From contig JAGPMT010000016.1 of assembly GCA_018052735.1 (NCBI GenBank), positions 1 to 54,785 on the forward strand: a DNA stretch of 54,785 nucleotides. Reading direction: 5' to 3'. Source of the stretch: Phycisphaerae bacterium (lineage in GTDB: Bacteria; Planctomycetota; Phycisphaerae; Sedimentisphaerales; Anaerohalosphaeraceae). Below the pieces are notes generated by a model, which saw only the letters and a list, made by a program, of their open reading frames with translations, searched no databases and had not been told where the DNA came from. The position numbers were made by a program, and so were the translations under genes. Positions 12,977-29,525 of the stretch are shown here, in pieces (the stretch's first letter is position 1; each line of letters opens with the position of its first letter).

Positions 12977-14200
12977 ATGGAATTGATAGACAATCAAACC
13001 AGAGTGTGTGTATTAACCGGCCGGAAAATGGCGGCTATTGCCAGCATTGCTCTGGAAGGACCGGAGTCGCAAACTATACTTGGAAAAATTTTCAGAAAAA
13101 ATCCTTTTAATAAGCATCGATCGAATACTGCTGCAGACACCGGCGTTATAGATCTTCAGCAGGTCCTATATGGCTGCATTATGGATGGCAGTCAAGTGAT
13201 TGATGAAGCAGTTGTTGGATGTGAAGAAAAGGATTCTTATGTTATTCATTGCCACGGAAATCCTCTGCTGGTTGAGCGAATTATCAATTTGCTTCAATCC
13301 TATGGAGCACAGCTTACAGAAGCGGAAACCTTTTTTTTAAGGCGCTATCGACGGCAGTCCGGCTCTTTGATTGAAGCCGAAGCCAAATTGGCGATGCAGA
13401 CTTCATATACCATTGCCGGCGTGCGGATACTTCAAGCCCAAATTGCTGCCGGTCTGACATTGTGGGCAGGCCGTATGATGGATGCCGTCAATATACTGAC
13501 ACGCGAGCAAATTCAAAATGAATGCCGTCAGATTTTGGCAAACAGCATCATTGCCCGACGGATCATTCACGGAGTACGTATCGTCATAGCCGGCCCCCCC
13601 AATTCAGGCAAAAGCACCCTTTTGAATTGCTTGGCAGGGCGGCAGGAAGCTATTGTCTCGGACATCGCCGGAACAACGCGGGATTGGATCAGTATTGTCT
13701 GCCGGATGGAACCGCTGTATGCAGAGTTTATTGATACAGCCGGATTGGATACCTCATTGGCACAAGATTATGCTCTTCAGCGGCATGCTCAGCAGATTAC
13801 ACAGCAATTGCTGGAAAACTGTGATTTAATTCTGCATCTGCACGATGCTGCTGCGTTGGAAGATAGCGGTATTCAATCAATTAATACAAATGTAATTGCA
13901 AATTTCGCTCAAAAAAAGCCCATTATTAATATTTATAATAAAATTGACCTTTTAAAGGATAGAAATATTCCTCACTGTCTGCCAAACGGCCTTTGCATCA
14001 GTGCTAAAGAGGGCATAGGGATTGAATTGCTTGGCCGGACGATAGGAAAAACACTAGGCACAAACGATTTTGATGCAAATCAGCCGGTCGTGTTTACAGA
14101 CCGCCAGAGAGCGATAATATCACAAATTATGAACTCCGCAGAATCCCTTAGAGATTTATTATCGGACTTGATTGGGCTTTCGTATCCCTCCACGCATTAG
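12977..14200 (+). CDS. Divergent MnmE/TrmE-like GTPase
   Basis: 407 residues against about 450 for MnmE. An N-terminal region recognisable by VIHCHGNPLLVERIINLL (MnmE: HCHGG...I) leads to a helical segment and then a G domain: G1 GPPNSGKST (206-214), G2 TTRD (233-236), G3 DTAG (253-256), G4 NKID (321-324), G5 SAK (342-344). MnmE with MnmG makes the 5-carboxymethylaminomethyl group of wobble uridine and needs a C-terminal FCIGK Cys. Here the matching end reads SDLIGL and that Cys is Leu. The helical domain before G1 is also shortened. It is either a much-altered MnmE or a paralogue doing something else. GAAGGA lies just before the ATG. Nothing adjacent helps assign a role. Confidence 0.75.
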   Translation: MELIDNQTRVCVLTGRKMAAIASIALEGPESQTILGKIFRKNPFNKHRSNTAADTGVIDLQQVLYGCIMDGSQVIDEAVVGCEEKDSYVIHCHGNPLLVERIINLLQSYGAQLTEAETFFLRRYRRQSGSLIEAEAKLAMQTSYTIAGVRILQAQIAAGLTLWAGRMMDAVNILTREQIQNECRQILANSIIARRIIHGVRIVIAGPPNSGKSTLLNCLAGRQEAIVSDIAGTTRDWISIVCRMEPLYAEFIDTAGLDTSLAQDYALQRHAQQITQQLLENCDLILHLHDAAALEDSGIQSINTNVIANFAQKKPIINIYNKIDLLKDRNIPHCLPNGLCISAKEGIGIELLGRTIGKTLGTNDFDANQPVVFTDRQRAIISQIMNSAESLRDLLSDLIGLSYPSTH

Positions 14201-14397: not shown

Positions 14398-15690
14398 GTG
14401 GCACAAGAACAACAGGACAAAAAAGATACCCCAGCAGCCGATGCCATGCAAAAACAGATTGCCCTGCAGGAAGCGCAATTTTATGCCAAAGGCCGGCTGA
14501 TGAACAATATGGCCTACCAAATCCGCACATTGTCTAACGCCATTGTCGGATTCAGCGATTTACTTCTTTCTGAACCGCTCAGTCCAGATCAATTGGAGTA
14601 TGTGCGAGAAATCAATCAGGCCGGCAACGGTTTATCGGCACTGGTCAATGAGGTACTGGATTGGACTCAGGTAATGACCGGCCGGATTGCGGTTTCCAAA
14701 ACATCATGCGATCTGGCAGAGCTTCTTGGGCGTCTGGAGGCAATCTTGCGTTCAGCCGCACGGGAAAAAGGGCTTGCCTGTGCTGTGCAGCTTGATCCGC
14801 AGCTGCCGGATTCTATTGTTTGTGATTCGGAACATCTGTATAAATGCCTCCTCAATTTATTGTCCAATGCTGTCAAGTATACGCGCAAAGGATCCATTCG
14901 GATTCATGTGCGATTGGATGACAGTCAGGCCGAACCGGCAGTTTGTTTTGATGTGATAGATACCGGTATCGGCATAGAGGCAGATAAAATCGACTCTATT
15001 TTTGATCCGGCTCAGAAGCGGGAAGAATCAAATGAACAAGTCCAAACACTTTTTAATCTCGGCTTGACAGTAACGGCAGGGCTGTCTTTAACCAAGCAGT
15101 TATGTCATCTGATAGGCGGAACAATAGAGGTAACCAGCCAAGTGAATAGCGGTTCAACGTTTACGCTGCGAATCCCCGCAGGATTGGAATTGTCCACCCG
15201 GCAGGAGTCCCCGATATACAGCCATCCAAAGCAGGAGACACAGAAGTCTGCCTCTGAGCCGGCTTTGATACTGCTGGCAGAAGACCAGCCGTCCAACCGC
15301 ACGGTTATTACCTTAATGCTCGAAGCAATGGGCGTTCGCGTAGACACAGCTCAGGATGGGCGGGAGGCTGTCCAAAAAGCCCTTCAGAATACTTATGACC
15401 TGATACTGATGGATTTAAAAATGCCGACGATGGACGGCTATGAAGCAGCGGCACAAATTCGCCGCCAGAATCACGTCCCCATGGTTGCCTTATCGGCCAA
15501 GGTGTTTGATGAAGAAGAACATCGCCGCATCACAGCTTTGTTTGAAGGATTTCTCACCAAGCCTGTTGACGGCCGCAAGCTTGCACAGACACTCGAACAA
15601 TTTATAGATTCGTTTCAGTATTCCGCACCGACGGCCGCAGCCTCGGCAGGCCGTCCGGCAGAAAACATAGCATATGAATACAGAACATAA
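14398..15690 (+). CDS. Histidine-kinase-like protein lacking the phospho-accepting His, fused to a receiver domain
   Basis: 430 residues, GTG start after AAGGA. No membrane segment. The dimerisation region reads N-M-A-Y-Q-I-R-T-L-S-N where hybrid kinases have M-S-H-E-I-R-T-P-L-N; Tyr40 takes the place of the phosphorylated His. The ATP-binding domain keeps the N box (NLLSNAVKY, 153-161) and G1 (DTGIGI, 188-193), but the G2 glycine loop is altered (TAGLSL). The C-terminal receiver (about 290-410) looks intact: acidic pair Glu295/Asp296, phospho-acceptor Asp339 (LMDLKMPTMDG), switch Ser and Lys (LSAK, TKPVD). It lies 78 bases upstream of the GspE/PilB start, so control of pseudopilus activity is a reasonable inference. 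It may sense or scaffold, with the receiver phosphorylated by another kinase. Confidence 0.85.
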   Translation: MAQEQQDKKDTPAADAMQKQIALQEAQFYAKGRLMNNMAYQIRTLSNAIVGFSDLLLSEPLSPDQLEYVREINQAGNGLSALVNEVLDWTQVMTGRIAVSKTSCDLAELLGRLEAILRSAAREKGLACAVQLDPQLPDSIVCDSEHLYKCLLNLLSNAVKYTRKGSIRIHVRLDDSQAEPAVCFDVIDTGIGIEADKIDSIFDPAQKREESNEQVQTLFNLGLTVTAGLSLTKQLCHLIGGTIEVTSQVNSGSTFTLRIPAGLELSTRQESPIYSHPKQETQKSASEPALILLAEDQPSNRTVITLMLEAMGVRVDTAQDGREAVQKALQNTYDLILMDLKMPTMDGYEAAAQIRRQNHVPMVALSAKVFDEEEHRRITALFEGFLTKPVDGRKLAQTLEQFIDSFQYSAPTAAASAGRPAENIAYEYRT

Positions 15691-15768
15691 ACCAGACCAG
15701 AAATGACAGCAAACGTATCCAGACAAGTGCAGTATTCCGGTATGCCGCTGGCCGTCAAGGAGAATCAG

Positions 15769-17484
15769 ATGTTTGGTGACTGGCTGGTTCAGAACGGCTA
15801 TATCACGGAACAGCAGCTTGCCGCAGCACTGAACGACCAGAAAACCAGCGGAGGCCGGCTGGGACAGAATTTGGTGCGTCTGGCCTATCTAAACGATGAA
15901 CAGCTGACGCAGTGTCTGGCGGCTTATCTGAATCTGGAGTCCATATCGCTGTCAGATCTTTCTGTTATTAACAAGGAAGTAGCACGCGGAATCCCTGAAA
16001 ATATTGCCAAACGCTTCCATAGCTTGGCTGTCGATGCTAAAGACGACCGCATTCTTGTGGCAATGGCCGATCCGCTCAATGTAATTGCCGTTGATACGGT
16101 TTCAGTCAAGCTGAAGAAAAATATTCAGGTTGTGCTGGCTTCGGAACGGGAAATCCAGCGGGCCATTGAGTATGTCTACCATGGAACGGATGTCGAAGAA
16201 CAGCAGCTTCGCGACTTGGTCGAATTGGAAATCAGCAGCGATGAAGACGACCTGATGGAAAATACGCTGGCTATGGAAGTGTCCGCTGCGGCCGAGGCAC
16301 AGGATGCACCGGTGATCCGCTTTGTGGATCTTCTGCTTAGTCAGGCCATTAAAAGCCGAGCCAGCGATATTCATATCGAGCCGCAGGATAAATCGATGAG
16401 CATCCGCATGCGGATTGACGGACTACTGACGGAAATGGTGCCGCCGCCAAGAAAAATGCAGCCGGCCGTAATTGCCCGCATCAAGATACTTTCCGAAATG
16501 GATATTGCCGAGCGGCGGCTGCCGCAGGATGGCCGTTTTAAAATCAGACGGGGCCAGGGAAAAGAAGAAATTGATGTCCGTGTTTCTTCGCTGCCGACTA
16601 TCTATGGCGAAAAAATTGTAATGCGCATCCTTGATAAGGGAGCAGTCACCCATAATCTTGACAGTCTGGGGCTGGAGCCTGACCTACTGGCTAAATTTAA
16701 GATGACGCTCCAGCAGCCCCATGGCATCATCATCGTTACAGGCCCCACCGGCAGCGGCAAGAGTACAACCCTTTATTCAGCGCTCAATGAGCTGCGGGAC
16801 CCCCACAAAAACATTACGACAGTCGAGGATCCTGTGGAATACCGGCTTGAGGGAATTAACCAGACACAGATTAAGCCGTCTATTGGTCTGACGTTTGCCT
16901 CATGCCTTCGAACGATTCTGCGGCAGGATCCTGATATTATTTTGATTGGCGAAATCCGCGATAAAGAAACGATGGAAATTGCTATCAAGGCCTCGCTGAC
17001 GGGACATCTGGTATTGAGCACCTTCCATACCAATGATGCCCCCAGTGCCTTGAGCCGATTGGTTTATATGGGTCTGGAGCCGTATCTGCTGGCCTCTTCT
17101 CTGAACCTGATATTGGCGCAGCGGCTCGTGCGCCGCATCTGTGACAAATGCAAAGCCCCCCAGACACTGACAGAAACTCAGATTAAACGTCTGGAATTAA
17201 CGCCCGAACAGATTGCCAACACAACATTCTATCATGGCAAAGGGTGTTCGGAGTGCGGCGGAAGCGGCTACCGCGGACGTCTTCCCATTTTTGAGTTTTT
17301 GATCATGGATAACCAGATTCGCGAAGCTCTTGCCAATGGGGCTTCTGAATCACAGATTCGAACGATGATTCGCCAAAAAGGATACGGCAGTCTGCTCAGC
17401 AGCGGTCTTGCCCGTGCGATTGAAGGCCGCACAACGGCCGAAGAAATTATCCGTGTAACTTATGCAGAGAACATAGAGGTTTAG
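15769..17484 (+). CDS. GspE/PilB-type assembly ATPase
   Basis: 571 residues from the ATG at 15769, chosen because AAGGAG sits 6 bases before it; the frame is open another 22 codons upstream without such a site. N-terminal MshEN/T2SSE_N domain (FGDWLVQNGYITEQQLAAAL), then the AAA-like motor: Walker A GPTGSGKST (about 325-333), Asp box, Walker B (DPDIILIGEIRD), His box (LTGHLVLSTFHTNDAP) and the tetracysteine zinc site (CDKC ... CSECGGSGYRGR). It hydrolyses ATP on the cytoplasmic face to drive pseudopilin assembly with the next gene's platform protein. The zinc site marks an extension ATPase, not a PilT retraction ATPase. Confidence 0.95.
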   Translation: MFGDWLVQNGYITEQQLAAALNDQKTSGGRLGQNLVRLAYLNDEQLTQCLAAYLNLESISLSDLSVINKEVARGIPENIAKRFHSLAVDAKDDRILVAMADPLNVIAVDTVSVKLKKNIQVVLASEREIQRAIEYVYHGTDVEEQQLRDLVELEISSDEDDLMENTLAMEVSAAAEAQDAPVIRFVDLLLSQAIKSRASDIHIEPQDKSMSIRMRIDGLLTEMVPPPRKMQPAVIARIKILSEMDIAERRLPQDGRFKIRRGQGKEEIDVRVSSLPTIYGEKIVMRILDKGAVTHNLDSLGLEPDLLAKFKMTLQQPHGIIIVTGPTGSGKSTTLYSALNELRDPHKNITTVEDPVEYRLEGINQTQIKPSIGLTFASCLRTILRQDPDIILIGEIRDKETMEIAIKASLTGHLVLSTFHTNDAPSALSRLVYMGLEPYLLASSLNLILAQRLVRRICDKCKAPQTLTETQIKRLELTPEQIANTTFYHGKGCSECGGSGYRGRLPIFEFLIMDNQIREALANGASESQIRTMIRQKGYGSLLSSGLARAIEGRTTAEEIIRVTYAENIEV

Positions 17485-17632: not shown

Positions 17633-18835
17633 ATGAAGACGTTTGAATATGTTGCATGGGATTATTCGGGCAATTGCCAGGAGGGAGTCCGGCAGGCCGC
17701 CAGTCAGGAGGAACTGCTCAGTTTTCTTCGCAGTCAGGAACTGACGCCGGCGGTTATTACGGAAGTTGTCGGATCGGTTCAGGAAAAGACAGCACCGGTC
17801 CGCTATAAGAAAGTCAAGTCTGTGGAACTGGCAACCTTCTGCTGGCAGCTGAGCACAATGCTGTCCGGCGGTCTGTCAATCACCAGTGCTATTCAGACCA
17901 TCGCAGATGAAATTTCCAATCCGTATTTTGAAGATGTTCTTAAAAGCATCGGCGAAAAAATTGAGAAGGGAATGTCTCTGACCGATTGTGTCAAGCAGTA
18001 TCCGAAGGTTTTCAGCAAGCTGTGCTGTGCGATTATTATGGCAGGCGAAACAGGCGGATCGCTGGCGGTTGCCCTCGAACGACTTGCCGAGCACTATGAA
18101 AACAAGGACAAACTGGCCCGCAAGGTCAAAGGAGCTATGGCATATCCGGCCTTTGTCGTCGGATTTATTGTCTTAATAGTGATTGTATTGATGACCCTGA
18201 TTATTCCCCGGTTTACAACAATGTTCAAGGAGTTCAACGGGGAGCTTCCAGCTTTTACCCGCGGCTTTATGGCGGTTTACGATGCAATCGCTCACAATGC
18301 TTTGTACATTGTTTTCGGATTGGTAGCGGCAGGAATTGGGCTGTCGCTGTATGCACGGACACGCCGGGGGCATTTGCATTTCTGCAAAATCAGCTTGTCC
18401 CTGCCGATTTTCGGCAAAATTCTGCTGATGGCTTTTGTGGCCTCTTTCTGCAAAACGCTCAGCACCCTTATCGGGGCGGGTGTTCCTCTGCTGGATGCCT
18501 TTGGCATACTGGCGGAGATGACCAATAACGATCTGCTGCGCAAAGGGGTACTCGATACCCGCGACAAGATGGTCGAAGGCGTCAGTATTTCACAAAGTAT
18601 GGAGCAGATCGGTTTCTTCCCCGGCGTGGCCGTTAAGATGGCCCAAATAGGAGAAAACAGCGGCTCGCTGTCCAGTGTGATGGAAAAAACCGCCGAGTAT
18701 TACGAGAAAAAGGTGGATTCACTTGTGTCGCTGATGCTGGGGATGCTGGAGCCGGTTCTGATAATAACGGTGGGAGCTATTGTGCTGGTGGTTATTTTGG
18801 CTATGTATCTTCCGATCTTTTCTCTGTCGGTCTAA
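17633..18835 (+). CDS. GspF/PilC-type inner-membrane platform protein
   Basis: 400 residues with two T2SSF repeats. The first (about 70-190) contains FCWQLSTMLSGGLSITSAIQTI and AGETGGSLAVALERLAEHYE. The second (about 270-395) contains FCKTLSTLIGAGVPLLDAFGIL and GENSGSLSSVMEKTAEYYE. Hydrophobic helices lie at about 168-190, 222-240 and 370-397. A short N-terminal domain (KTFEYVAWDYSGN) is typical. It links the ATPase to the growing pseudopilus. Separated from the ATPase gene by 148 bases, a larger gap than elsewhere in the locus. Confidence 0.94.
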   Translation: MKTFEYVAWDYSGNCQEGVRQAASQEELLSFLRSQELTPAVITEVVGSVQEKTAPVRYKKVKSVELATFCWQLSTMLSGGLSITSAIQTIADEISNPYFEDVLKSIGEKIEKGMSLTDCVKQYPKVFSKLCCAIIMAGETGGSLAVALERLAEHYENKDKLARKVKGAMAYPAFVVGFIVLIVIVLMTLIIPRFTTMFKEFNGELPAFTRGFMAVYDAIAHNALYIVFGLVAAGIGLSLYARTRRGHLHFCKISLSLPIFGKILLMAFVASFCKTLSTLIGAGVPLLDAFGILAEMTNNDLLRKGVLDTRDKMVEGVSISQSMEQIGFFPGVAVKMAQIGENSGSLSSVMEKTAEYYEKKVDSLVSLMLGMLEPVLIITVGAIVLVVILAMYLPIFSLSV

Positions 18836-18948: not shown

Positions 18949-19335
18949 ATGAAAGTAAAAGGGTTTACATTGATTGAGCTGATGGTCGTAATTCTGATTG
19001 TTGGAATTCTGGCAGCTGCTTCGGTCCCGATGATGCGGGGCCGCATCGATTCGGCCAAGTGGTCTGAAGCCAATGCAACCGCCGGAACGATTCGCTCGGC
19101 TGTTCGCGTGTATTTTGCCGAACACGGCGAAGCTCCCACCGGTGTTATGAATGCGGCCAATATGAGCTTGCTGGGCTTTACGTCTGCTGATTTAACAGGA
19201 ACCTATTTTGTTCCCGGCGACTACAACATCACCAGCGTAGATGCCAACGGCAATGCGACGATTACCGTTACGGGCAGCCAAACAAATGCTCCAAGCGGTT
19301 CCAAGACCCTCAGTGCTTCTGGAACATGGAACTGA
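18949..19335 (+). CDS. Major pseudopilin (GspG/type IV pilin-like)
   Basis: 128 residues. The leader is only MKVKG, then the prepilin motif G|FTLIEL with Glu at +5 and a hydrophobic helix (MVVILIVGILAAASVPMM). The globular part is small and Cys-free (RIDSAKWSEANATAGTIRSAVRVYF onward). First of the pilin genes, with an AGGAG site and a strong hairpin directly after it. Both features fit a highly expressed main subunit. Whether it forms a surface pilus or a short periplasmic pseudopilus cannot be told from sequence. Confidence 0.9.
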   Translation: MKVKGFTLIELMVVILIVGILAAASVPMMRGRIDSAKWSEANATAGTIRSAVRVYFAEHGEAPTGVMNAANMSLLGFTSADLTGTYFVPGDYNITSVDANGNATITVTGSQTNAPSGSKTLSASGTWN

Positions 19336-19401: not shown

Positions 19402-19471
19402 GTCTGTAAGCAGCCGGCACGGGAGGTATGGGATTGGAGGTGCCGGCAAATCAGCCGAATGAGGAATGGGA

Positions 19472-19999
19472 ATGATCTACAGAGGCAGAATGCCATACCC
19501 GGCAGCAGCCAGCAGGCGGATTAGGATGCAGACAGCATTTACGCTGATCGAGGTGATGCTGTCGATCCTCATTGTGATGGTGCTGGTTACGGGAGCCATG
19601 GGGTATCAGTATTTCAGCGCCCGCGATGTAAAACTTGCCGAAGTCCACACCTCCGCAGCGCGGCTTGCGCTGCTGCTGCTGGAAAGCTGGAAGGGTGTTC
19701 AGGGCGACGCGGGATTTGATCCAGTCAGCACTTTTGCTGGACAGCTTGATATTCAATCCGCTCAAGAAGGCCCCCCTGCGGCGACTAATACAGGCGGTGC
19801 CCTGCTGACGTGTCTGGGCTTTTATCAGGTTCAATTGAATGGAGTGTGCTATTATGTAACGCCGGCTTGGCAGCCACCTTCAGACCTTGAACCGATGGTG
19901 CTCAATGTTACTATTGCCTGGCGGCGCGATTACAGACCGGGGCCGCTGACAGGCGATGAACCTCTTGTCCGGTATTCCGCTTTTCTTGTGCAGAACTGA
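19472..19999 (+). CDS. Minor pseudopilin, I/PilV-like, cassette copy 1
   Basis: 175 residues from the ATG at 19472, which has GAGGA 6 bases upstream; an ATG two codons earlier directly abuts that site. A 20-odd residue basic leader precedes A|FTLIEVM (Glu at +5), then a hydrophobic helix. Position -1 is Ala and not the usual Gly. The globular part contains ARLALLLLESWKGVQGDAGFDP, closely echoed in the gene at 21.8 kb (ARTAHVLIEAWKGHKGAADFDP). First gene of a three-gene minor pseudopilin set that occurs twice. Confidence 0.85.
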   Translation: MIYRGRMPYPAAASRRIRMQTAFTLIEVMLSILIVMVLVTGAMGYQYFSARDVKLAEVHTSAARLALLLLESWKGVQGDAGFDPVSTFAGQLDIQSAQEGPPAATNTGGALLTCLGFYQVQLNGVCYYVTPAWQPPSDLEPMVLNVTIAWRRDYRPGPLTGDEPLVRYSAFLVQN

Positions 20000-20008
20000 T
20001 CAAAGACG

Positions 20009-20542
20009 ATGAAACACTACAGCGTACAGGCAGATCGATGCGGATTTACACTGATTGAGCTGATGACAGCCATAGCGCTGGTTTCGATTGTCATTCTCAG
20101 CATCGGTTTTTTGCTGGCCGATGGGCAGCGGGCTTTGGCCCGTCAGCGCAGCCGGGTGTTCAGCGATGCAGCGGCTGACGGATTTGCTATTCAGAAGGTA
20201 TTTGATGCAGTCTGCCGCAAAGCCAGTATGCGTAAAGCCGTTATAGCCGACGAAGGCCGAACGCTGGAGTTGTATTATTGGAATGCCGGCTCGACCACTT
20301 CCTCGCCGGAAAATTATGCCCGTTTTTACCAATCGGACAGGGATGTATTTATCCAGCACGGCAGATTACTGCCTGGGACCTGGCAGCCGGATGCGGATGC
20401 ACCTGTTTCAACAATCTTGCTGGCACGGCAGGTTGATACGATAGCATTTGTTGCGGAAGGAACATCCGTGCAGATGTTTCTGACTTTTGAAGATCCGGAT
20501 CTGATGCCGGTTGTCTGCTCCTCGGTGCGGCACAATGATTAG
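20009..20542 (+). CDS. Minor pseudopilin, J/PilW-like, cassette copy 1
   Basis: 177 residues. Leader of 12 residues (MKHYSVQADRCG), then G|FTLIELMTAIALVSIVIL with Glu at +5. The following segment (GQRALARQRSRVFSDAAADG...FDAVCRKASM) aligns with the second-cassette gene at 22.3 kb (TQRGWLDSYAKV...FDKVVRKASR). The second half contains YYWNAGST and FYQSDRDVF, and the partner has FYYSDWLAS and FYRNSADPS. Starts 9 bases after the preceding gene, so the two are co-transcribed. Probably part of the pseudopilus tip complex with its I- and K-like neighbours. Confidence 0.85.
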   Translation: MKHYSVQADRCGFTLIELMTAIALVSIVILSIGFLLADGQRALARQRSRVFSDAAADGFAIQKVFDAVCRKASMRKAVIADEGRTLELYYWNAGSTTSSPENYARFYQSDRDVFIQHGRLLPGTWQPDADAPVSTILLARQVDTIAFVAEGTSVQMFLTFEDPDLMPVVCSSVRHND

Positions 20543-20554
20543 CAGGGTAGAACG

Positions 20555-21772
20555 ATGGGTGTACAAATAATCAGAAAACAGCGAAAAGGGGCCATCTTGG
20601 CATTGATGGTTATGGTTATTCTGCTGCTGTCGATGACCTCGCTGGCACTCATGAAGGTGGGGCAGGAAGCTCGGCTTCGTACTGTTCGCAATGCTTCTCA
20701 AATTGCTGCTCGTTTTGCTGCAGATGCGGGCATCGAACAGGTGATTTACCAAATGAACAAACAGCTGGCAGCTGGGGCATGGACGCTCGATGAGATTCCT
20801 GTCTATACGGCACAGCCGATGTCCGGCTGTACAGCCAGCTACACGGTAACTTTTACCTCCGGTTCGCTGGCCGGCGGCTACCAGATTACGTCGGAAGGAC
20901 GCTGCGGCGGGCAGATCCGGATGGTTCGGGCTACGGTTGGATTAACCAGTCCTTTTGCTGAAAATTATGCCGTCTTGACGCAAGGAAGCATGGCCTTTAA
21001 AAATAAATCGATCGTGGCAGGATACAATTCAGCCGATCCGCTGGATACCGATGTATCGGTACGCATCGGCACGCTCAGCACAGGCAGCGGAGCTGTTGAT
21101 ATCTACAACGGCAGCACAATCCATGCGGATGTTTATGTGGGGCCCGAGGGCGACCCTCAGCGGGTCATTAACCAGCACGGCGGCGCCAGCGTGGCGGGGG
21201 AGTATTTTGTTATGCCTGTCAGCATAAATCTGCCGGTAATTGAGCCGCCTGATTATGTTGCCTCACGCGGGTCGCTAAAGGTCAACAGTGATCTCACACT
21301 GCATGCCGCCGACAGCGGGAAATATACAAGCATCAATGTTAAAAACGGCAAAACGCTGATTGTCGGCGGAGATTTGACGCTATATGTAACCGGAGATATC
21401 GATTTGGGAAACGGCGCCAAAATAGAAGTGGAAAACAACGGTTCTTTAAAGCTCTATTTTAAAGGCAGCATCGATGCCCGGAACTCCGCAGGCATCAGCA
21501 ACAAAAGCCGAATCCCCTCCAAAGTAAAGCTGTTTGGCACAGGGACCAACCAGAGCATCGATTTGAAAAATGACGGGGCATTATATGGTGTTGTCTATGC
21601 CCCAGAGGCCCAGATGACGGTTCATAATAAAACGGATGTCTACGGTTCTATTATCGTTCATGATTTTGAGCTGAAAAACGGCGGAAATATGTATTATGAT
21701 GAAGCCTTGAAAAATGTTTCGCTGGACGACGAATGCATCCGTTTTGCCGTAACCCGCTGGGAGGATTTATAA
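20555..21772 (+). CDS. K/PilX-like tip pseudopilin with beta-helical passenger, cassette copy 1
   Basis: 405 residues. The N-terminus KQRKGAILALMVMVILLLSM is a type III-like hydrophobic start without Glu at +5, as in GspK and PilX. Then comes the ARFAADAGIEQVIYQMNK segment typical of PilX-type proteins. The C-terminal two thirds (about 150-405) is repetitive and rich in Asn/Gly (YGVVYAPEAQMTVHNKTDVYGSI), like the DUF7305 beta-helix region, ending YYDEALKNVSLDDECIRFAVTRW. Its copy at 22.9 kb ends in the same pattern. K-like subunits lacking Glu5 cap the pseudopilus, so this is the likely tip with an exposed domain. 12 bases separate it from the J-like gene. Confidence 0.82.
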   Translation: MGVQIIRKQRKGAILALMVMVILLLSMTSLALMKVGQEARLRTVRNASQIAARFAADAGIEQVIYQMNKQLAAGAWTLDEIPVYTAQPMSGCTASYTVTFTSGSLAGGYQITSEGRCGGQIRMVRATVGLTSPFAENYAVLTQGSMAFKNKSIVAGYNSADPLDTDVSVRIGTLSTGSGAVDIYNGSTIHADVYVGPEGDPQRVINQHGGASVAGEYFVMPVSINLPVIEPPDYVASRGSLKVNSDLTLHAADSGKYTSINVKNGKTLIVGGDLTLYVTGDIDLGNGAKIEVENNGSLKLYFKGSIDARNSAGISNKSRIPSKVKLFGTGTNQSIDLKNDGALYGVVYAPEAQMTVHNKTDVYGSIIVHDFELKNGGNMYYDEALKNVSLDDECIRFAVTRWEDL

Positions 21773-21793
21773 TTCTTCCGAAAGGAGGTCGCA

Positions 21794-22273
21794 ATGAATC
21801 ATACTGCAGCGCATCCTGTAAGAAAACAGGCATTTACTCTGATTGAATGCCTGATTGTAATGCTGATTTTGATGATCAGCATCGGCGGCATCATGGGCTT
21901 TCGCTACCATGCGGTTCTGAATGCCGAACGGGCTGAAACGCACCTTTTGGCCGCCCGCACGGCGCATGTGCTGATTGAGGCCTGGAAAGGCCATAAGGGA
22001 GCCGCTGATTTTGATCCTACTTTGCCGGGATTTGATTCTTGTTTCCAAATACAGCCGGGCAGCATTTTCGGCACAGAAAGTGCTGCCTTGACCGGTTCCG
22101 AATATCGCTATTTGGGTACTTACCGGGTGGATGTCGAAGGCCGTTCTTTCCGAGCTGACCTGGTCTATCAAAACGATACCGGCATTGACCGGCTGCGAAC
22201 ACTGTATGTAGTGATAAGCTGGCAGGACAAGCAGCCCCGACGCTTATATCTGTCCACCCTCACACAAACATAA
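21794..22273 (+). CDS. Minor pseudopilin, I/PilV-like, cassette copy 2
   Basis: 159 residues, preceded by a near-perfect AAAGGAGGT site. Leader MNHTAAHPVRKQA, then A|FTLIECLIVMLILMI with Glu at +5 and again Ala at -1. The globular part shows ARTAHVLIEAWKGHKGAADF, matching the first-cassette gene at 19.5 kb. The C-terminal part (YLGTYRVDVEGRSFRADL...LYVVISWQ) parallels the copy's CLGFYQVQLNGVCYYV...LNVTIAW. It opens the second I-J-K set. Confidence 0.87.
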   Translation: MNHTAAHPVRKQAFTLIECLIVMLILMISIGGIMGFRYHAVLNAERAETHLLAARTAHVLIEAWKGHKGAADFDPTLPGFDSCFQIQPGSIFGTESAALTGSEYRYLGTYRVDVEGRSFRADLVYQNDTGIDRLRTLYVVISWQDKQPRRLYLSTLTQT

Positions 22274-22285
22274 AAGGACCGTCTT

Positions 22286-22801
22286 ATGAAATCCATGCCA
22301 ATGAAAGCCGGATTTTCTCTAACAGAACTGACTTTAGCCATAGCGATCAGTTCTATTATCCTGCTGGCTGTTGCCGTAGTGATGCTGGATACACAGCGGG
22401 GCTGGCTGGATTCGTATGCAAAAGTCAACAGCAGGGCGATTGCGGATGCTGCCGTAGCCAAAACGGCCTTTGACAAGGTTGTGCGCAAAGCATCCCGCAC
22501 GCTGTATTATTTCGATGCAATTGATGATATTACAGTTTTTTATTACAGCGATTGGCTGGCAAGCCCCCAATTGGACCGTTTTGCCCGATTCTACCGTAAT
22601 TCTGCTGATCCATCCTGCCTCTATGTTCAATACGGCGATGTGGGCACAGGTCAAGTTTTGTCGGAAGTTTGTCTGGCTTCCACGGTGGCAGATTTGGAAT
22701 TCCGACCGCTTAACGGTGCTATTGAAATGAAATTGGTTCTGCAGGATGACCACGAATCGACTGTAATGGTTACGACGGCTATTTTGCACAATGATGGTTA
22801 A
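22286..22801 (+). CDS. Minor pseudopilin, J/PilW-like, cassette copy 2
   Basis: 171 residues with AAAAGGA upstream. Leader MKSMPMKAG, then G|FSLTELTLAIAISSIILLAV with Glu at +5. The mid-region KTAFDKVVRKASRTLYYFDAI matches the copy-1 gene. The last residues TTAILHNDG parallel CSSVRHND there. The spacing of 12 bases to the preceding gene implies translation from one message. Diverged enough from copy 1 to suggest an old duplication with separate roles. Confidence 0.85.
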   Translation: MKSMPMKAGFSLTELTLAIAISSIILLAVAVVMLDTQRGWLDSYAKVNSRAIADAAVAKTAFDKVVRKASRTLYYFDAIDDITVFYYSDWLASPQLDRFARFYRNSADPSCLYVQYGDVGTGQVLSEVCLASTVADLEFRPLNGAIEMKLVLQDDHESTVMVTTAILHNDG

Positions 22802-22865
22802 GTCATCCTGCATCCAGGCCGATACCTGGTTAGAAAATGTATTGAAGATTCAGAAAGTCCGATAA

Positions 22866-24113
22866 ATGAAAACTGTAAGACAGAACATATTGCCTCAAAA
22901 AGAACAGACCGGCTCTGTTTTGGTCCTTGTACTGGTGATTGTGATGGTCTGTTTTATTATCGGAACCAGCGTTTTACTGCTTGGAACACAGTCACGCATG
23001 GCATCCCTTGACCAGATACAAGATATGGAAGCCCGTCTGGCCGCTGACGCCGGGGTAGAACGTGCGGTCCAAGAGATCAATAATGCAGTGATCGCTAAAA
23101 CTTGGTCTGCTGATCTGCTCCCTTCGGCCAGCGGCGTCGAAATGCCTTTTTCCAATGCTATTTATTCCGTAACAACGACCTATGATTCTGCCGATGGCTA
23201 TCGCATAGCATCTACTGGTATCGACCGCAATCGCAGCCGTACAGTCAGAGCCGCTTTGCGGCTCAAAGGTCTGTTTGATAATGCAATTCAATGCCGAAAC
23301 AATATTATTCTTAAAAGCGGTACAGTCGTTCAAAGCGTTGATTCAAACGTCTCATTAAATCCGGACGATTGCAGTCAGAAAGTTATTATCGGGACCAACA
23401 GTACAGAGGCCTGCTCAATTATTCTGAACAATAACGTCGTTGTAGATGGCGATGTTGTGGTAGGATTCGGCGGCGATGTAGCCAGAGTCATCAAAGATCA
23501 GGGTGCCATTTTTGACCGCAGCTATGCACTGTCTTCAACCCTCGATTTTCCGCAGGTTTCCCCGCCGCCGCTGCTGGGACCCAATACAAAAATCGAGGTT
23601 AAAACAGGAGAAAAAACAATCGGACCGGGCGGTGATTTTCCCGCCGGCGGCCGGTTTTCCTCTGTCAAATTGGGGCAAGGTGCTACCCTGCGGGTTATCG
23701 GTGACTGCACGTTGTATATAACCGGCACTGTGGATATGGGGCAAAACAGCGAAATTCTTCTGGATCCGGCTTATAATGCCTCCTTGACGGTCTATTTGGA
23801 CGGCAACTGGATTTCCGACAACAATTCAGGCATCAATAACGCCATCCAGATTCCCTCGCGTTTTAAGCTGTACGGGACAGGGCCGATTGGCCAAAAAATC
23901 GATTTGAAGGCCAAAACCGATGCATTTGGCGTTATTTATGCGCCAAATGCGGATTTGACGGTCTATTCCGGGGGCAATATTTACGGAAGTTTTGTGGCCA
24001 ATAATTTCGAATTGAAAAGTCCGGCAAATTTTTACTATGACGCTGCACTCAAGACGGTTTCTGTAACGGATGAAGGTGCTCGATTTGTCATCAGCCGCTG
24101 GAATGAAGAATAA
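22866..24113 (+). CDS. K/PilX-like tip pseudopilin with beta-helical passenger, cassette copy 2
   Basis: 415 residues. The N-terminus KEQTGSVLVLVLVIVMVCF has no Glu at +5, as expected of GspK/PilX-type tip subunits. ARLADAGVERAVQEI-type helix follows (as written: ARLAADAGVERAVQEINN). The repetitive C-terminal region (FGVIYAPNADLTVYSGGNIYG) and the end FYYDAALKTVSVTDEGARFVISRW mirror copy 1 of this cassette at 20.6 kb. Having two such tips suggests either two alternative filament ends or two secretion substrates. Confidence 0.82.
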   Translation: MKTVRQNILPQKEQTGSVLVLVLVIVMVCFIIGTSVLLLGTQSRMASLDQIQDMEARLAADAGVERAVQEINNAVIAKTWSADLLPSASGVEMPFSNAIYSVTTTYDSADGYRIASTGIDRNRSRTVRAALRLKGLFDNAIQCRNNIILKSGTVVQSVDSNVSLNPDDCSQKVIIGTNSTEACSIILNNNVVVDGDVVVGFGGDVARVIKDQGAIFDRSYALSSTLDFPQVSPPPLLGPNTKIEVKTGEKTIGPGGDFPAGGRFSSVKLGQGATLRVIGDCTLYITGTVDMGQNSEILLDPAYNASLTVYLDGNWISDNNSGINNAIQIPSRFKLYGTGPIGQKIDLKAKTDAFGVIYAPNADLTVYSGGNIYGSFVANNFELKSPANFYYDAALKTVSVTDEGARFVISRWNEE

Positions 24114-24125
24114 CGGAACAAAAGT

Positions 24126-25202
24126 ATGGCACTCAATTTACTGACGCATCGACAAATTGAACCGGCTGGTCTGGACATCGGAACGTCCGCGGTCAAGCTG
24201 GTCCGCCTGCGCAAAACCAGTGATGGGTATGCTCTTGCGGCGGCTGTCAGACAGCCGATTGACGGCGGCACAGGAGACGAAAAACAGCGTCGTCTGAGTT
24301 GTGCCGAAGCGGTTAAGGCCTGCTTTCAAAAGGCCGGCCTGAAAAGCCGAAGTGCTGTGACCGGTGTTTCAGGCCCGGAAGTGATGATACGGGGCTTTAA
24401 ATTAGGACCGCTGCCGATGGAAGCTGTTGGTCAGGCAGTCGCCATTGAAGCCCAGCAGGTCTGTCCGCTTGATATGAAGCATAGTGTGCTGGACTATCAG
24501 CTTATCGAAAGTCAGCCGATAGTGTCCCCTGACGGCCGTACTGTCCAGCCGAAACATGGTGTGATGGCAGTTGCCGCCGAACATGTGCTTCAAGAGAAAA
24601 TGCAGATTCTTGCTGAGGCAGGCGTTCGGGTCCTGATGATTGATGCCGATGCATTGGCCCTTCTGAATTGTCTCAATGAGCTGCAGTTGCTCGAAACCGG
24701 CGGAACGGCAGCAGTGGTCGATATGGGTATGATGTTCACCAATGTCGTCATTTACGGTCAGGACGGCCTGCCGTTTGTGCGCGATATTCATATCGGCGGG
24801 CAGCGGATTGCCGAGCAGCTCAGTCAAATGCTTGCGGTTTCCGAAAGCCAGGCCTGCCGGTTTCTGGCCGGCGAACCCTCACCGGAGGTGCCGCAGAATA
24901 AGGTGCTGCTGGCTTTAAATGATGCGATCCGGCCGCTGGCCAACGCGATTAACGAGACCCTGCGGTTCTATTCGTTTCAGGAAAAAGGCGCTGGCCTGGA
25001 CAGCATTTATTTATCCGGTGGATTGGCGCAAACGGGGTCTTTTGTGGAATTTCTTGCTGACGCTCTGCCGGCGCCGGTACATATTCTAAATCCGTTTGAG
25101 GCCATGCCTGTTGATGATGCTATTCCCAACGCAGCCGAACTGATTCAAAGCGGTCCGGCATTTGCTGTGGCCGCAGGTCTTGCAATGAGGATGGTCGAAT
25201 GA
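24126..25202 (+). CDS. PilM-like actin-fold ATPase of the pseudopilus platform
   Basis: 358 residues. FtsA/PilM actin-like fold: phosphate-1 motif GLDIGTSAVKLVRL (about 15-28), middle AAVVDMGMMFTNVVIYGQDGLPFVRDIHIGG, and late IYLSGGLAQ. PilM docks on the cytoplasmic tail of PilN and connects to the assembly ATPase; in T2SS the cytoplasmic half of GspL is the equivalent. Starts 12 bases after the second K-like gene and overlaps the next gene by 4 bases, so it is tightly coupled. Confidence 0.9.
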   Translation: MALNLLTHRQIEPAGLDIGTSAVKLVRLRKTSDGYALAAAVRQPIDGGTGDEKQRRLSCAEAVKACFQKAGLKSRSAVTGVSGPEVMIRGFKLGPLPMEAVGQAVAIEAQQVCPLDMKHSVLDYQLIESQPIVSPDGRTVQPKHGVMAVAAEHVLQEKMQILAEAGVRVLMIDADALALLNCLNELQLLETGGTAAVVDMGMMFTNVVIYGQDGLPFVRDIHIGGQRIAEQLSQMLAVSESQACRFLAGEPSPEVPQNKVLLALNDAIRPLANAINETLRFYSFQEKGAGLDSIYLSGGLAQTGSFVEFLADALPAPVHILNPFEAMPVDDAIPNAAELIQSGPAFAVAAGLAMRMVE

Positions 25203-25843
25203 TGTTTTCTATCGATTTGCTCAAAGGAAAGGGATTGCCGGAAAAGACCGATCTGAAGCGGATTGGTCTTAAAGCAGTTCCTTTACTGATTCCGATTTTG
25301 GCCGTAGGGGGGCTGGCCGCTTCATGGCAGCATAGCAAAGCGCTTCTGGAATCCCAGAAAGCCGCCCTCCAGACGCATCAGGAGCAGATGGCCTTGTATG
25401 CCGAGGATGCTGCCGCATACAGCAAAACCCTCGCCCAGATTAATAGTCTGCAGGGATGCTTGAAAGACATCTCTGCAGCCCTGGCCTATCGAATTCAGGT
25501 TTCGGATCTGCTGGTCGAACTTGTACAAACCCTGCCGGACAGCATCTTTCTCTATGAGATGAAGCTGGACCGGAATTCTGTTGTTGAAAAAATCCAGCAG
25601 GCCGATTCAGCCGATGCCAAGCAGCGGCTGGTCGTCCGCCGAAAACTGAATCTGATTCTCTGCGGTTTTGATGCCCAGCGAAGCGATCCGGCTGTTCAGG
25701 AATATCTCGACCGCCTCAAGCAGTCGGCGCGTCTTAGGTCTGTATTTGAGCAAATCAAGCCGACAGCCCGCCAGCAGGGGCAGGTGGACAATCGGGATGC
25801 CGTCTATTATGAAATTGAATGCGTTCTTAAGGAGCAGGGATGA
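25199..25843 (+). CDS. PilN-like inner-membrane platform protein
   Basis: 214 residues. An N-terminal cytoplasmic stub (MFSIDLLKGKGLP), a single membrane helix (about 29-46, AVPLLIPILAVGGLAAS), a coiled-coil region and a periplasmic ferredoxin-like domain. That is the fold and size of PilN or the periplasmic part of GspL. Starts within the stop of the PilM-like gene (ATGA overlap) and overlaps the PilO-like gene the same way. The short N-terminal motif probably binds the PilM-like protein, as in known systems. Confidence 0.82.
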   Translation: MMFSIDLLKGKGLPEKTDLKRIGLKAVPLLIPILAVGGLAASWQHSKALLESQKAALQTHQEQMALYAEDAAAYSKTLAQINSLQGCLKDISAALAYRIQVSDLLVELVQTLPDSIFLYEMKLDRNSVVEKIQQADSADAKQRLVVRRKLNLILCGFDAQRSDPAVQEYLDRLKQSARLRSVFEQIKPTARQQGQVDNRDAVYYEIECVLKEQG

Positions 25844-26478
25844 TCATGAAGCTGAAAAAAATAAAACTCAGCCGGTATGCCGGAATGCTTATTGCTGTAT
25901 GGAGCCTCTGCATCGTCCTCTTGGTCTTGGGGTATTGGCAGTGGTATCTGCCGCTTCAGGCCGAGCGGATTGAAGTCCAGCGGCAGTTTTCCGAAAGCAG
26001 CCAGCAGCTGGAACAAGCCCGCCTGGCAGCCCGGGAAGAAACAAAACAGCAGCTCAAGCAGCGATTGGAGCAGTCCAGCCGGACTATTGCGGACTTTTCT
26101 GTACCGGCTGACGGTGTAACCAATCTTGTTTTTCAAATCGGCCAGATTTCAAATGATCTGCGCCTAATTGATTTTTCCAGCAAGAACCCAAAGACTTCCT
26201 ACGCTTCGACGCTCGGAAGTACCAAGCGGCTGTCCGAAGGATGGCTGTCGGTGGAATTTTTTGCATCATTTGAACAGTTTGTCCGCTTCATCAACCAGCT
26301 GGAGCGGAACTGCCCTGCGGTGTTTGTGGAAAAACTCCAGTTTCGGCGGGCAACAGCGGAATCCAAAGGTCATGATATCAAGCTGGAGCTGTCGTTTTTG
26401 GCATCTGCTCAGCCCTCCGCTGAACCGGTTGCATCGGCAGCCGGCCTAACCGCAGCAGATAAGACTCTTAAGAATTAA
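25840..26478 (+). CDS. PilO-like inner-membrane platform protein
   Basis: 212 residues. One membrane helix near the N-terminus (about 14-36, MLIAVWSLCIVLLVLGYWQWYL), then a Gln/Glu-rich coiled coil (about 40-90) and a mixed alpha/beta periplasmic domain. This is the architecture of PilO/GspM. Overlaps the PilN-like gene by 4 bases; PilN and PilO pair as a heterodimer in studied systems. Sequence similarity to named families is weak by eye, so the call leans on topology and gene order. Confidence 0.78.
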   Translation: MIMKLKKIKLSRYAGMLIAVWSLCIVLLVLGYWQWYLPLQAERIEVQRQFSESSQQLEQARLAAREETKQQLKQRLEQSSRTIADFSVPADGVTNLVFQIGQISNDLRLIDFSSKNPKTSYASTLGSTKRLSEGWLSVEFFASFEQFVRFINQLERNCPAVFVEKLQFRRATAESKGHDIKLELSFLASAQPSAEPVASAAGLTAADKTLKN

Positions 26479-26495
26479 AGGCAAAATACGGCATC

Positions 26496-27290
26496 GTGAG
26501 AACCATTGCAATAACAAATCAGAAGGGCGGCTGCGGCAAGACCACAACAGCAGTCAATTTGGCTGCTGCACTGGCTGTCCGGGGGCAGCGCACGCTTTTA
26601 GTTGATCTGGATCCTCAGGGCCATGCCACTCTCGGATTGGGACTGATTCCGGAGCACTGTCAGCATACAATCTTTGATGTCATTGTTCAGGATGATTTGC
26701 CGGTATCGCGTATTCTGATGCCTTCCGGCATACCGCTGCTGATGATTGCTCCCAGCAATGTGCTTCTGTCAGGCGCCGAAGCAGCCCTGATGACAATGAA
26801 CCAGCGCGAATATGTTCTGTATAATCGCCTTCTTCAGGCTGACCTGTTTTTCGATTACTGCATTATCGATTGTTCTCCTTCTCTCAGTTTGTTGACGCTT
26901 AACGCCCTCAATGCGGCTTCCGATGTCATTATTCCTGTTCAGACGCATTATTATTCCATCGAAGGACTAAAACAGGTTCTGGAAACCCTCAGTGTAGTTC
27001 AGGAACGCTTCAATCCCCAGCTTCAAGTGCGGGGCATTTTGCTGACCTTGGCCGAAAAAAATGCAATTCTCTCACGTGATGTGGAACGGCAGATGCGGGA
27101 TTATTTCGGTCAGCTTATTTTTCAAACGGTCATTCACCGTAATATTCGATTGGCAGAGGCCCCGGCAGCGGGCCAATCCATCATCACTTACGATCCGGCC
27201 AATCCGGGTGCAAAAGAATACAGGCAATTAGCGGAAGAGATAACCTATGAGAAAGTCAGGACTACACAAGCAGATTTCGTCCATATTTGA
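26496..27290 (+). CDS. ParA/MinD-family ATPase within the pseudopilus operon
   Basis: 264 residues, GTG start. Deviant Walker A KGGCGKTT (10-17) with the signature Lys10, switch LLVDLDPQGHATLGLG (A' motif), Walker B YCIIDCSPSLSLLTLNAL and PVQTHYYSIEGLKQVLETL: a Soj/ParA-type protein, complete in length. No ParB, parS or replication gene is nearby, so chromosome partition is unlikely. Placed between the PilO-like gene and the GspB/C-like gene, it probably positions the machine in the cell, as ParA-like proteins do for other polar or distributed complexes. Its last 44 bases overlap the next gene. Confidence 0.88.
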   Translation: MRTIAITNQKGGCGKTTTAVNLAAALAVRGQRTLLVDLDPQGHATLGLGLIPEHCQHTIFDVIVQDDLPVSRILMPSGIPLLMIAPSNVLLSGAEAALMTMNQREYVLYNRLLQADLFFDYCIIDCSPSLSLLTLNALNAASDVIIPVQTHYYSIEGLKQVLETLSVVQERFNPQLQVRGILLTLAEKNAILSRDVERQMRDYFGQLIFQTVIHRNIRLAEAPAAGQSIITYDPANPGAKEYRQLAEEITYEKVRTTQADFVHI

Positions 27291-28023
27291 CGGCGTGCCG
27301 ATGCCTCAAAACAGCCTCTCTGCAGCTGCATCGCCGCCCAGTCAGGTACCGCCGACGGCAGCCGCATCCCATTCCTTGGAGGCGTCTGCTGCATCCAGAC
27401 CTACGCTGGCCCAGCGCCTCAGCGCCGATCCATCGGTCTGTATCAGTACGCCGGCGGTTTCGTCCAAACGGCCGATGCCCTTGCCGAAGTCAGCAGTTCC
27501 ATCAGCACCCAAAGGCAGCGGCGGTTTTTCTTCGCAGGTGAAGAAAGCTGTTTTCGGCTCAGCTAAAGGACAAGTTGATTCGCGTCAGAAAAAAATGGCT
27601 GTTTTAGTCGGCATTTTATCAGTGGTGTTTGCTGCTGTATTGTATGTGACCTTGGGCGGGCTGGGAAAAGGCAAAGCCATTGCCGCTGTAAGCAGTCCGG
27701 ATCCTGAACAGAGTGTGCCGGCTTTGCAGAAAACTATTGAAGACTGGAAGCGTCCCGACCCGGTTCCCAATGACCTTCGCGATGCGACGGTACCGGTTGT
27801 CCGTCAGGCGGTGCCTGTGCAGACAGCTGATACTGATGCCGAAGTGGGCGATCTGACGGTGCGCGGCATTCTGTTTAGCCAGCACAAGCCGTCGGCTATA
27901 GTCAACGGTCAAGTAGTGACCGAAGGTCAGACGATTAATGGCGTTACAGTAGTCCGGATTTCGCGGGATACCGTTGAGTTTGAAGCGAATGGAAAACGCT
28001 GGACCCGTTCTGTTCAGCGATAA
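27247..28023 (+). CDS. GspB/GspC-like bitopic protein of the secretion locus
   Basis: 258 residues. A Pro/Ser/Ala-rich cytoplasmic region (about 1-115), one membrane helix (about 118-140, MAVLVGILSVVFAAVLYVTLGG) and a periplasmic part. The C-terminal domain (about 196-256) reads LTVRGILFSQHKPSAIVNGQ ... TINGVTVVRI ... VEFEANGKRW, the homology region of GspB/GspC that touches the secretin. GGAAGAG stands a few bases before the ATG. It starts inside the ParA-like gene in another frame, so translation is coupled. Likely job: to connect the inner platform to the outer-membrane secretin. Confidence 0.82.
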   Translation: MRKSGLHKQISSIFDGVPMPQNSLSAAASPPSQVPPTAAASHSLEASAASRPTLAQRLSADPSVCISTPAVSSKRPMPLPKSAVPSAPKGSGGFSSQVKKAVFGSAKGQVDSRQKKMAVLVGILSVVFAAVLYVTLGGLGKGKAIAAVSSPDPEQSVPALQKTIEDWKRPDPVPNDLRDATVPVVRQAVPVQTADTDAEVGDLTVRGILFSQHKPSAIVNGQVVTEGQTINGVTVVRISRDTVEFEANGKRWTRSVQR

Positions 28024-28070
28024 TAAATGCCCATCTACAGCGATCTGAATAATCAGGAAAGGATAGGATT

Positions 28071-29525
28071 ATGGATACGATACACGGCCTCAAAAAAATA
28101 TTTGCCGCAGTGCTGCTGCTTGTCAATGGGCAGATTGCTTTGCTGACGGCCGATGAACTTGCCGTCGTCAGCAATAAGCCTGTTCTGCTCAGCCCGGTCC
28201 AGCAGCGGATGCAGCAGGAAATCAGTATTGATTTTCGCGATACTCCGATTGATGATGTGCTGATGATGATGGCCAAGCAGGCCGATGTGGACATCCTCAA
28301 AAGTCCCAAAGTAACCGGCACCGTAACTGCTACCCTGACGGATGTTCCCCTGTCGGAGGCCTTGGCCGGCATCCTTGAAACGCATGGCTATACGTATGTG
28401 GCTACCGACAATATCATCCGAGTTGTAGCCAAAGAGGATGTTCAGGAAATTCGCGAAAAACTGGTCAGCCGCGTCTTCCGCGTTACCTATGCTGATGTTA
28501 AGGAAGTTGAACAAGCCCTTCAGCGTTTCATTTCCGAGCAGGGTTCTATCTCCGCCAATCCCGGCACCAGCAACATTATCGTTACGGATGTCGAAAGCAA
28601 GATTCAGGCAATCCAGTCTTTTATTGAAGAGATTGACCGTGTAACCCCGCAGATTCTCGTCGAGGCCAAAATCTACGATGTCTCTTCAAAAGACCGTTTT
28701 GACCTTGGTATCCAGTGGCAGGCCGGCACCGCCACCAGCTATGGCGAACCCGGCACCGGTCAGCGTCTGGGCAATGATATCGGTACCATAGGCAATATGT
28801 ATAACGGCGTGCGGGATTCGGCGCTGACAGGAGCTTTCAACGGCACCATCAGCAAAGCCACCGATACCGACGGTCTGCTTCGTTTTGGGATATTAAATGA
28901 CAACGTTCATATCGATGCACTGCTTCGTGCCGAAAAAGAAGATGTGCGGGCTAAACTGTTGGCTAATCCGCGTGTAATGGTGCTGGATAATCAATTGGCA
29001 CAAATCAAGATTGTGGAAGAAATCCCCTATCAGGAATTGACAGAAACCAGTGCCGGCGGCAGCATCGGAACCACTTCCTTCCGCGATGTGGGCATCGAAC
29101 TTCGAGTGACGCCTCATTTGACCCGAGATGGTCTGATTCGACTTCAGCTCAATCCCAAGTTCAGCGTCCGGACGGGCGATGTGGCTGTAGCGGGAGTTAA
29201 CAACACCAATCCTCAGCCGATTGTCGCAAGCCGCGAAACTATTACCACTGCCCTGATTAAAGACGGCCAGACTGTTGTGATAGGCGGTCTTAAAAAACAA
29301 GATGTGTCCCAGCAGATCAATAAGGTTCCGATTCTGGGAGATCTGCCTCTTTTAGGCGGCCTGTTTAAGTTTCAAGGTGAAAGTACCGTTAATAGCGAAT
29401 TGGTGGTCTTTATTACACCTCATATTGTTACTCAGCCGACCCTGTCTGCTGAAGAGCAAAAGCATCTTGAAAATACTGTCTTTGTCAGCCCGCGGCTGCC
29501 TGAGACGCGATACGGGAATAACTAA
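28071..29525 (+). CDS. Secretin of the type II secretion/type IV pilus family (GspD/PilQ-like)
   Basis: 484 residues with a signal-peptide-like start (about 1-28). An STN/N-type domain (about 48-120, ISIDFRDTPIDDVLMMMAKQ, DVPLSEALAGILETHGYTY), one NolW-type N domain (about 125-195, VFRVTYADVKEVEQALQRF), then the secretin core (about 200-465) with VEAKIYDVSSKDRFDLGIQW and the closing signature TVVIGGLKKQDVSQQINKVPILGDLPLLGGLFK. It forms the outer-membrane gate. Shorter than most GspD (650+), with fewer N domains, and closest in layout to PilQ/MshL. Last gene of the locus, followed at 18 bases by a terminator. Confidence 0.95.
   Translation: MDTIHGLKKIFAAVLLLVNGQIALLTADELAVVSNKPVLLSPVQQRMQQEISIDFRDTPIDDVLMMMAKQADVDILKSPKVTGTVTATLTDVPLSEALAGILETHGYTYVATDNIIRVVAKEDVQEIREKLVSRVFRVTYADVKEVEQALQRFISEQGSISANPGTSNIIVTDVESKIQAIQSFIEEIDRVTPQILVEAKIYDVSSKDRFDLGIQWQAGTATSYGEPGTGQRLGNDIGTIGNMYNGVRDSALTGAFNGTISKATDTDGLLRFGILNDNVHIDALLRAEKEDVRAKLLANPRVMVLDNQLAQIKIVEEIPYQELTETSAGGSIGTTSFRDVGIELRVTPHLTRDGLIRLQLNPKFSVRTGDVAVAGVNNTNPQPIVASRETITTALIKDGQTVVIGGLKKQDVSQQINKVPILGDLPLLGGLFKFQGESTVNSELVVFITPHIVTQPTLSAEEQKHLENTVFVSPRLPETRYGNN

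Follow-up and report, generated by a model that had tools for sequence, protein, structure and literature searches.

What can a hybrid histidine kinase do once its phospho-accepting His has become a Tyr, and why is its gene kept beside that of an assembly ATPase? The question is raised by a gene in the 54,785-nucleotide stretch of Phycisphaerae bacterium DNA analyzed here (hereafter the window), whose product joins HisKA-like and HATPase-like domains to a receiver (Table 1). The evidence given below describes a conserved pseudo-histidine kinase with a live-looking receiver, which probably serves as a non-catalytic switch for the adjoining pilus/secretion machine.

Table 1. Coordinates of the pseudokinase gene, its parts and the neighboring cluster in the window (aa, residues of the pseudokinase).
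Feature	Position	Strand	Remarks
Pseudo-hybrid histidine kinase gene	14398..15690	+	HisKA-like + HATPase-like + receiver; 430 aa; no predicted sensor domain
DHp (HisKA-like) helical hairpin, aa 30-95	14485..14682	+	Pfam; model helices 12-57, 63-94; most constrained part by dN/dS
H-box MAYQIRTLSN, aa 38-47	14509..14538	+	Tyr40 (codon 14515-14517) for His, Gln41 for Glu, Leu45 for Pro
HATPase_c-like (CA) domain, aa 143-261	14824..15180	+	N-box and G1 retained, G2 lost
ATP-lid/G2 region, aa 203-227	15004..15078	+	No GTGLGL; exceeds canonical relatives in length; modeled with low confidence
Receiver domain, aa 291-399	15268..15594	+	E295/D296, phospho-acceptor D339 (codon 15412-15414), S366, F385, K388
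GspE/PilB-type assembly ATPase	15703..17484	+	Conserved neighbor, 12 bp past pseudokinase stop
GspF/PilC-type platform protein	17633..18835	+	Same cluster
Major pilin/pseudopilin-like	18949..19335	+	N-methylation motif
Minor pilin-like and PilX/DUF7305-like genes	19466..24113	+	Same cluster
PilM-like, weak PilN-like, GspM-like, ParA/MinD-like, weak GspB-like and secretin genes	24126..29525	+	Complete the machine

Domains and catalytic residues

The open reading frame was confirmed, with a GTG start and a soluble product, and Pfam matches HisKA at residues 30-91 (1.2e-8), HATPase_c at 143-261 (1e-21) and Response_reg at 291-399 (9.5e-25) and detects no sensor domain, PAS and HAMP included, in the 430 residues. 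Alignment sets the H-box of the window protein, NMAYQIRTLSNAIVGF, against MSHEIRTPMNAIIGF in canonical relatives, the columns of His, Glu and Pro being occupied by Tyr40, Gln41 and Leu45, which bears out the preliminary description, according to which both the His and the Pro are gone. The altered G2 loop that it had reported is likewise evident, a longer stretch of different sequence, NLGLTVTAGLSL, standing in place of the GGTGLGL of the relatives; the other ATP-binding boxes, N (NAVKYT, Asn157), G1 (DTGIG) and F, are kept. Compared with a catalytic hybrid histidine kinase, then, the window protein lacks G2 from the set of N, G1, F and G2 boxes, and the phospho-accepting H-box His is found in none of the 23 members of its clade (see below). 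The receiver, in contrast, keeps its acidic pair, phospho-Asp, Ser/Thr and Lys, with E295, D296, D339 (numbered as first read), S366 and K388 each present in 23/23. Every NCBIfam cut-off for TorS/ArcB/BarA/ShkA-type hybrid kinases is missed by far. As judged from these residues, catalytic loss in the window protein and its clade is well supported, and the earlier statement that the protein would be unable to autophosphorylate at its H-box gains support from the clade-wide absence of the His together with the loss of the G2 box.

Could phosphate enter the kinase part elsewhere? The alignment of homologues at the H-box, which had been proposed as a check, shows no displaced His: a His at +1 occurs in a single member (L011, MVYHVRT), and with no neighboring His conserved among the 23 a displaced site was rejected. 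The idea that Tyr40 or another residue is phosphorylated from ATP on the remnant CA domain, the preliminary description having allowed for phosphorylation on another residue, draws on the Tyr in 20/23 members and on the N-box Asn and G1 retained in most of them, a persistence that makes weak nucleotide binding possible. It is nevertheless very improbable, as Phe at the site in three members disfavors Tyr phosphorylation, the ATP lid motif is gone, with G2 lost in 22/23 members and the N-box Asn in two genomes, and in DivL the corresponding Tyr is not a phosphosite, Y550F retaining partner binding (PMC4211667).

An AlphaFold model built from the 23-member alignment (mean pLDDT 76, pTM 0.53, relative domain placement not being trustworthy) shows both helices of DHp, a CA fold whose lid is uncertain, and the receiver. 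Its Foldseek matches include ShkA, RetS, GacS and HK853, with DivL (4q20) at rank 37.

A clade of relatives under selection

When 39 genomes of the GTDB family and 161 of the order were searched with profiles, 23 members emerged, of which 22 belong to the family and one (G082) to another part of the order. Samples of the class (397 genomes) and phylum (392) gave no extra members above the background of canonical hybrids. The contigs of the own genome yielded canonical relatives only, and two of these, L002 and L003, carry normal MSHE(I/L)RTP boxes, by which a mix-up of paralogues was rejected. Among the members, the column of the His holds Tyr in 20, Phe in 3 (G018, G044 and G082) and His in none; P45L is found in 23/23, Gln41 in 22/23, and Arg43 and Thr44 are invariant. 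Canonical-type relatives in the same alignment show His in 25/26 and Pro in 26/26. The His is missing from about 0.9% of the HisKA domains of a large sample (PMC12632262), so that its absence from all 23 members goes beyond chance and a single shared ancestral loss fits better than repeated ones.

In the maximum-likelihood tree the members group together as one clade, separate from 30 canonical-type relatives (support 93/92). The tree is rooted at the midpoint, and a single branch has on one side the members plus a long-branched copy from G012, whose placement is unsure; this copy (L154:3464-4282, 273 aa, upstream of gspE) is a receiverless, further degraded version of the pseudokinase. The G082 member (L146:8317-10265) combines Phe at the site with a partial G2 (TSPGLGL), consistent with His loss preceding loss of the G2 box. 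A separate stand-alone receiver gene lies just downstream of it.

A hybrid kinase of G034 (L027/L147; L147:7578-9578) also has Tyr at the His site (MSYQIRTP) and, by visual inspection, an HPt-like stretch at its C-terminus. It was rejected as a clade member, since its Pro and G2 are intact and it falls among the canonical kinases in the tree, which points to an independent His-to-Tyr change.

Selection was estimated as dN/dS by the Nei-Gojobori method on non-saturated pairs, which are few, so the values are rough, although all lie well below 1. Pairwise values are 0.09-0.18 for the whole gene and, by domain, 0.015-0.09 for DHp in the less saturated pairs (0.15 in the older G000/G008 pair), 0.03-0.15 for the receiver and 0.09-0.25 for CA. 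DHp, no longer open to phosphorylation, shows the lowest dN/dS and is thus the best preserved domain. A functionless former hybrid kinase in slow decay might be recognized in the G012 copy, which sits at the same place, and in the freely varying lid region. Of the explanations weighed it is nonetheless the hardest to credit, given 23 intact ORFs, dN/dS far below 1, receiver catalytic residues kept at large divergence and no interrupted copy among the loci that carry the gene, bar G004, where the contig ends. Random decay or sequencing error was rejected on the 23 intact members and the low dN/dS. With a HisKA fold, lost catalytic function(s) and continuing selection, the group has what defines a pseudo-histidine kinase in the broad sense, and it is a real, conserved clade of pseudo-hybrid histidine kinases.

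Positions H+8, +11, +12 and +15 (A48, G51, F52 and L55), the receiver-docking determinants of HK853/EnvZ-type kinases, are invariant in 23/23, a pattern only suggestive of binding to a phosphorylated receiver in a protein devoid of kinase and phosphatase activity. The few fixed differences from canonical relatives include E41Q, P45L, T366S and Y385F; positions 366 and 385 correspond to the CheY switch sites Thr87 and Tyr106 (the aromatic at Lys minus 3), so that the changes shared there clade-wide retuned the receiver switch with its chemistry kept.

Counting against a purely non-catalytic reading is Thr44, at H+4, a residue tied to phosphatase activity in HisKA kinases (the T of HExxT) and kept, next to Arg43, in 23/23. 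A phosphatase role is thereby possible: DHp would be a dedicated phosphatase or phosphate sink for its own or another receiver, with no kinase activity, and the conserved His is indeed non-essential for HisKA phosphatase activity (PMC12632262). We regard this as unlikely, because 22/23 members have Gln for the flanking Glu and none has the Pro, the ATP lid that often aids HisKA phosphatases is gone, and DivL, which carries the identical His-to-Tyr substitution, is devoid of phosphatase activity (PMC4211667).

Linkage to the pilus/secretion cluster

The pseudokinase gene lies directly upstream of gspE on the same strand in 22/22 in-family members, with a gap that ranges, according to which start is taken, from about -14 to +100 bp; a 23rd locus, in G004, is cut within the receiver by the contig end. 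In G019 (L078) the pair is intact although the arrangement of the other cluster genes examined differs from that in the window. The linked ATPases themselves form one clade (support 98/95), every member of which is accompanied by the pseudokinase, whereas more distant ATPases of the family (G011, G014, G015, G022, G023, G045 and G051) have no such adjoining gene where the flank is present. The linkage of the two genes is conserved and well supported, but, as the G082 member does not adjoin gspE, it is not universal.

The preliminary description had taken the place ahead of gspE to suggest control of pseudopilus assembly. The link to the ATPase stands, and "pseudopilus" is a tentative name: T2SSE is clearly present in the ATPase, which just misses the NCBIfam cut-offs for both PilB (636.4 vs 675.65) and GspE (603.5 vs 630.25).

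This linkage also bears on the strongest rival, a RetS-like negative regulator, in which the dead DHp/CA part would complex with a canonical hybrid such as L002 or L003 and block or rewire its signaling, adjacency to gspE meaning co-expression only. Top fold and sequence matches include the histidine kinase region of RetS and its co-complex with GacS (7n0e), DHp is strongly conserved, and canonical hybrids that could be the partner are encoded in the same genome. Tight linkage to the ATPase in 22/22 genomes would not be expected, however, and RetS is a membrane protein that retains its H-box His and acts by binding GacS; what the window protein, with its His lost, shares with it is a kinase-like region in non-catalytic use and a close fold match, a likeness of fold only. 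We consider such a role improbable, if less so than that of a phosphatase.

Several neighbors deserve mention. Upstream of the pseudokinase, a MnmE-like GTPase gene (window 12977-14200, 407 aa) encodes an incomplete helical domain and misses both MnmE NCBIfam cut-offs by far; G002, G007 and G008 likewise have such a gene ahead of the pseudokinase. The ParA/MinD-like ATPase (26496-27290), 60-68% identical in some relatives, is possibly a positioning factor, and of the two PilX/DUF7305-like proteins (20555-21772 and 22866-24113) one has a weak match to an ice-binding-like adhesive domain.

Proposed mechanism and known systems

The explanation that we favor, with modest confidence, is a DivL-like pseudokinase whose receiver is phosphorylated in trans and whose DHp/CA part is a docking platform gating the neighboring motor; the rivals above follow in falling likelihood from the RetS-like inhibitor through the phosphatase and alternative autophosphorylation to decay. 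The receiver would take phosphate at Asp339, its phospho-state would set the conformation of the dimeric DHp hairpin and remnant CA, and these, as a non-catalytic docking platform in the fashion of DivL, would gate the motor ATPase or its recruitment through their output surface. The analogy suggests the same-chain receiver as input and the dead DHp/CA as output on the adjacent motor. Both trans phosphorylation and contact with the ATPase we infer by analogy, synteny alone not making the ATPase the target. We hold more tentatively the stricter proposal that this is an undescribed clade dedicated to the assembly ATPase, in which receiver phosphate re-poses a dead DHp/CA dimer that directly gates the motor. 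If this is true, a hybrid kinase would be run in reverse, from receiver to kinase-like domain to machine.

The simplest route for the phosphate would lead from a canonical hybrid kinase via a stand-alone HPt protein. The genome encodes canonical hybrids 35-37% identical to the pseudokinase; its membrane hybrid kinases L002 and L003 have normal H-boxes and no HPt of their own, and a search for a cognate HPt elsewhere in the genome, as had been suggested, found a candidate, the sole HPt match, in a stand-alone protein of 133 aa (C61, L162:1438-1839). A relay from hybrid to HPt to receiver could terminate at D339, but the genome encodes competing receivers, which these hybrid kinases and this HPt, unlinked to the pseudokinase, could serve instead.

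Among known systems the nearest matches in sequence and fold are hybrids of the TorS/ArcB/BarA/ShkA type, which share the HisKA-HATPase-receiver order but autophosphorylate and have sensor domains, whereas the window protein has lost His, Pro and G2. DivL of Caulobacter crescentus (PDB 4q20, a mid-list match of the pseudokinase with E 1.1e-14) shares the Tyr exactly at the phospho-His, a kept HisKA/HATPase fold, the kinase-dead state, tolerance of Phe and, probably, conservation as a receiver-docking surface; it has neither kinase nor phosphatase activity and binds a phosphorylated regulator (PMC4211667). It differs in having N-terminal PAS domains and no receiver, an arrangement that Pfam does not find here, and in controlling CckA in the cell cycle; the window protein has its own receiver and no sensor or PAS domain, has also lost Pro and G2, and is linked to a pilus/secretion ATPase.

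Pseudo-histidine kinases are already known but seldom characterized, DivL being the chief bacterial example with a Tyr there. For the present arrangement, and for its constant pairing with a pilus/secretion ATPase, the open-access literature searched seems to hold no description, and no report of a planctomycete or pilus-linked pseudo-kinase was found there, in itself weak evidence of novelty. The clade is kept vertically; it carries a receiver of its own, lacks a sensor and has a fixed partner in the genome, which already suggests the client machine, and with this well-defined pair of genes the role of dead histidine kinases becomes testable.

PilG/PilH and FimX have receiver domains that influence the place or the timing of assembly ATPase activity (PMC11656802). 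None of these is a HisKA-HATPase pseudo-hybrid, and FimX, a dead receiver with GGDEF/EAL, shows the reverse arrangement. Direct receiver control of the pilus ATPase has been suspected (PilG/PilB), with no direct interaction reported (PMC11656802), and the mechanism proposed here would add an input from two-component signaling to the pilus/secretion motor itself.

At residues 24-73 the ATPase of the window also scores 65.1 bits for an MshE-related cyclic di-GMP-binding motif, against an NCBIfam cut-off of 38, and it matches Pfam MshEN as well; with such an MshE-type N-terminus, the motor may also receive second-messenger input.
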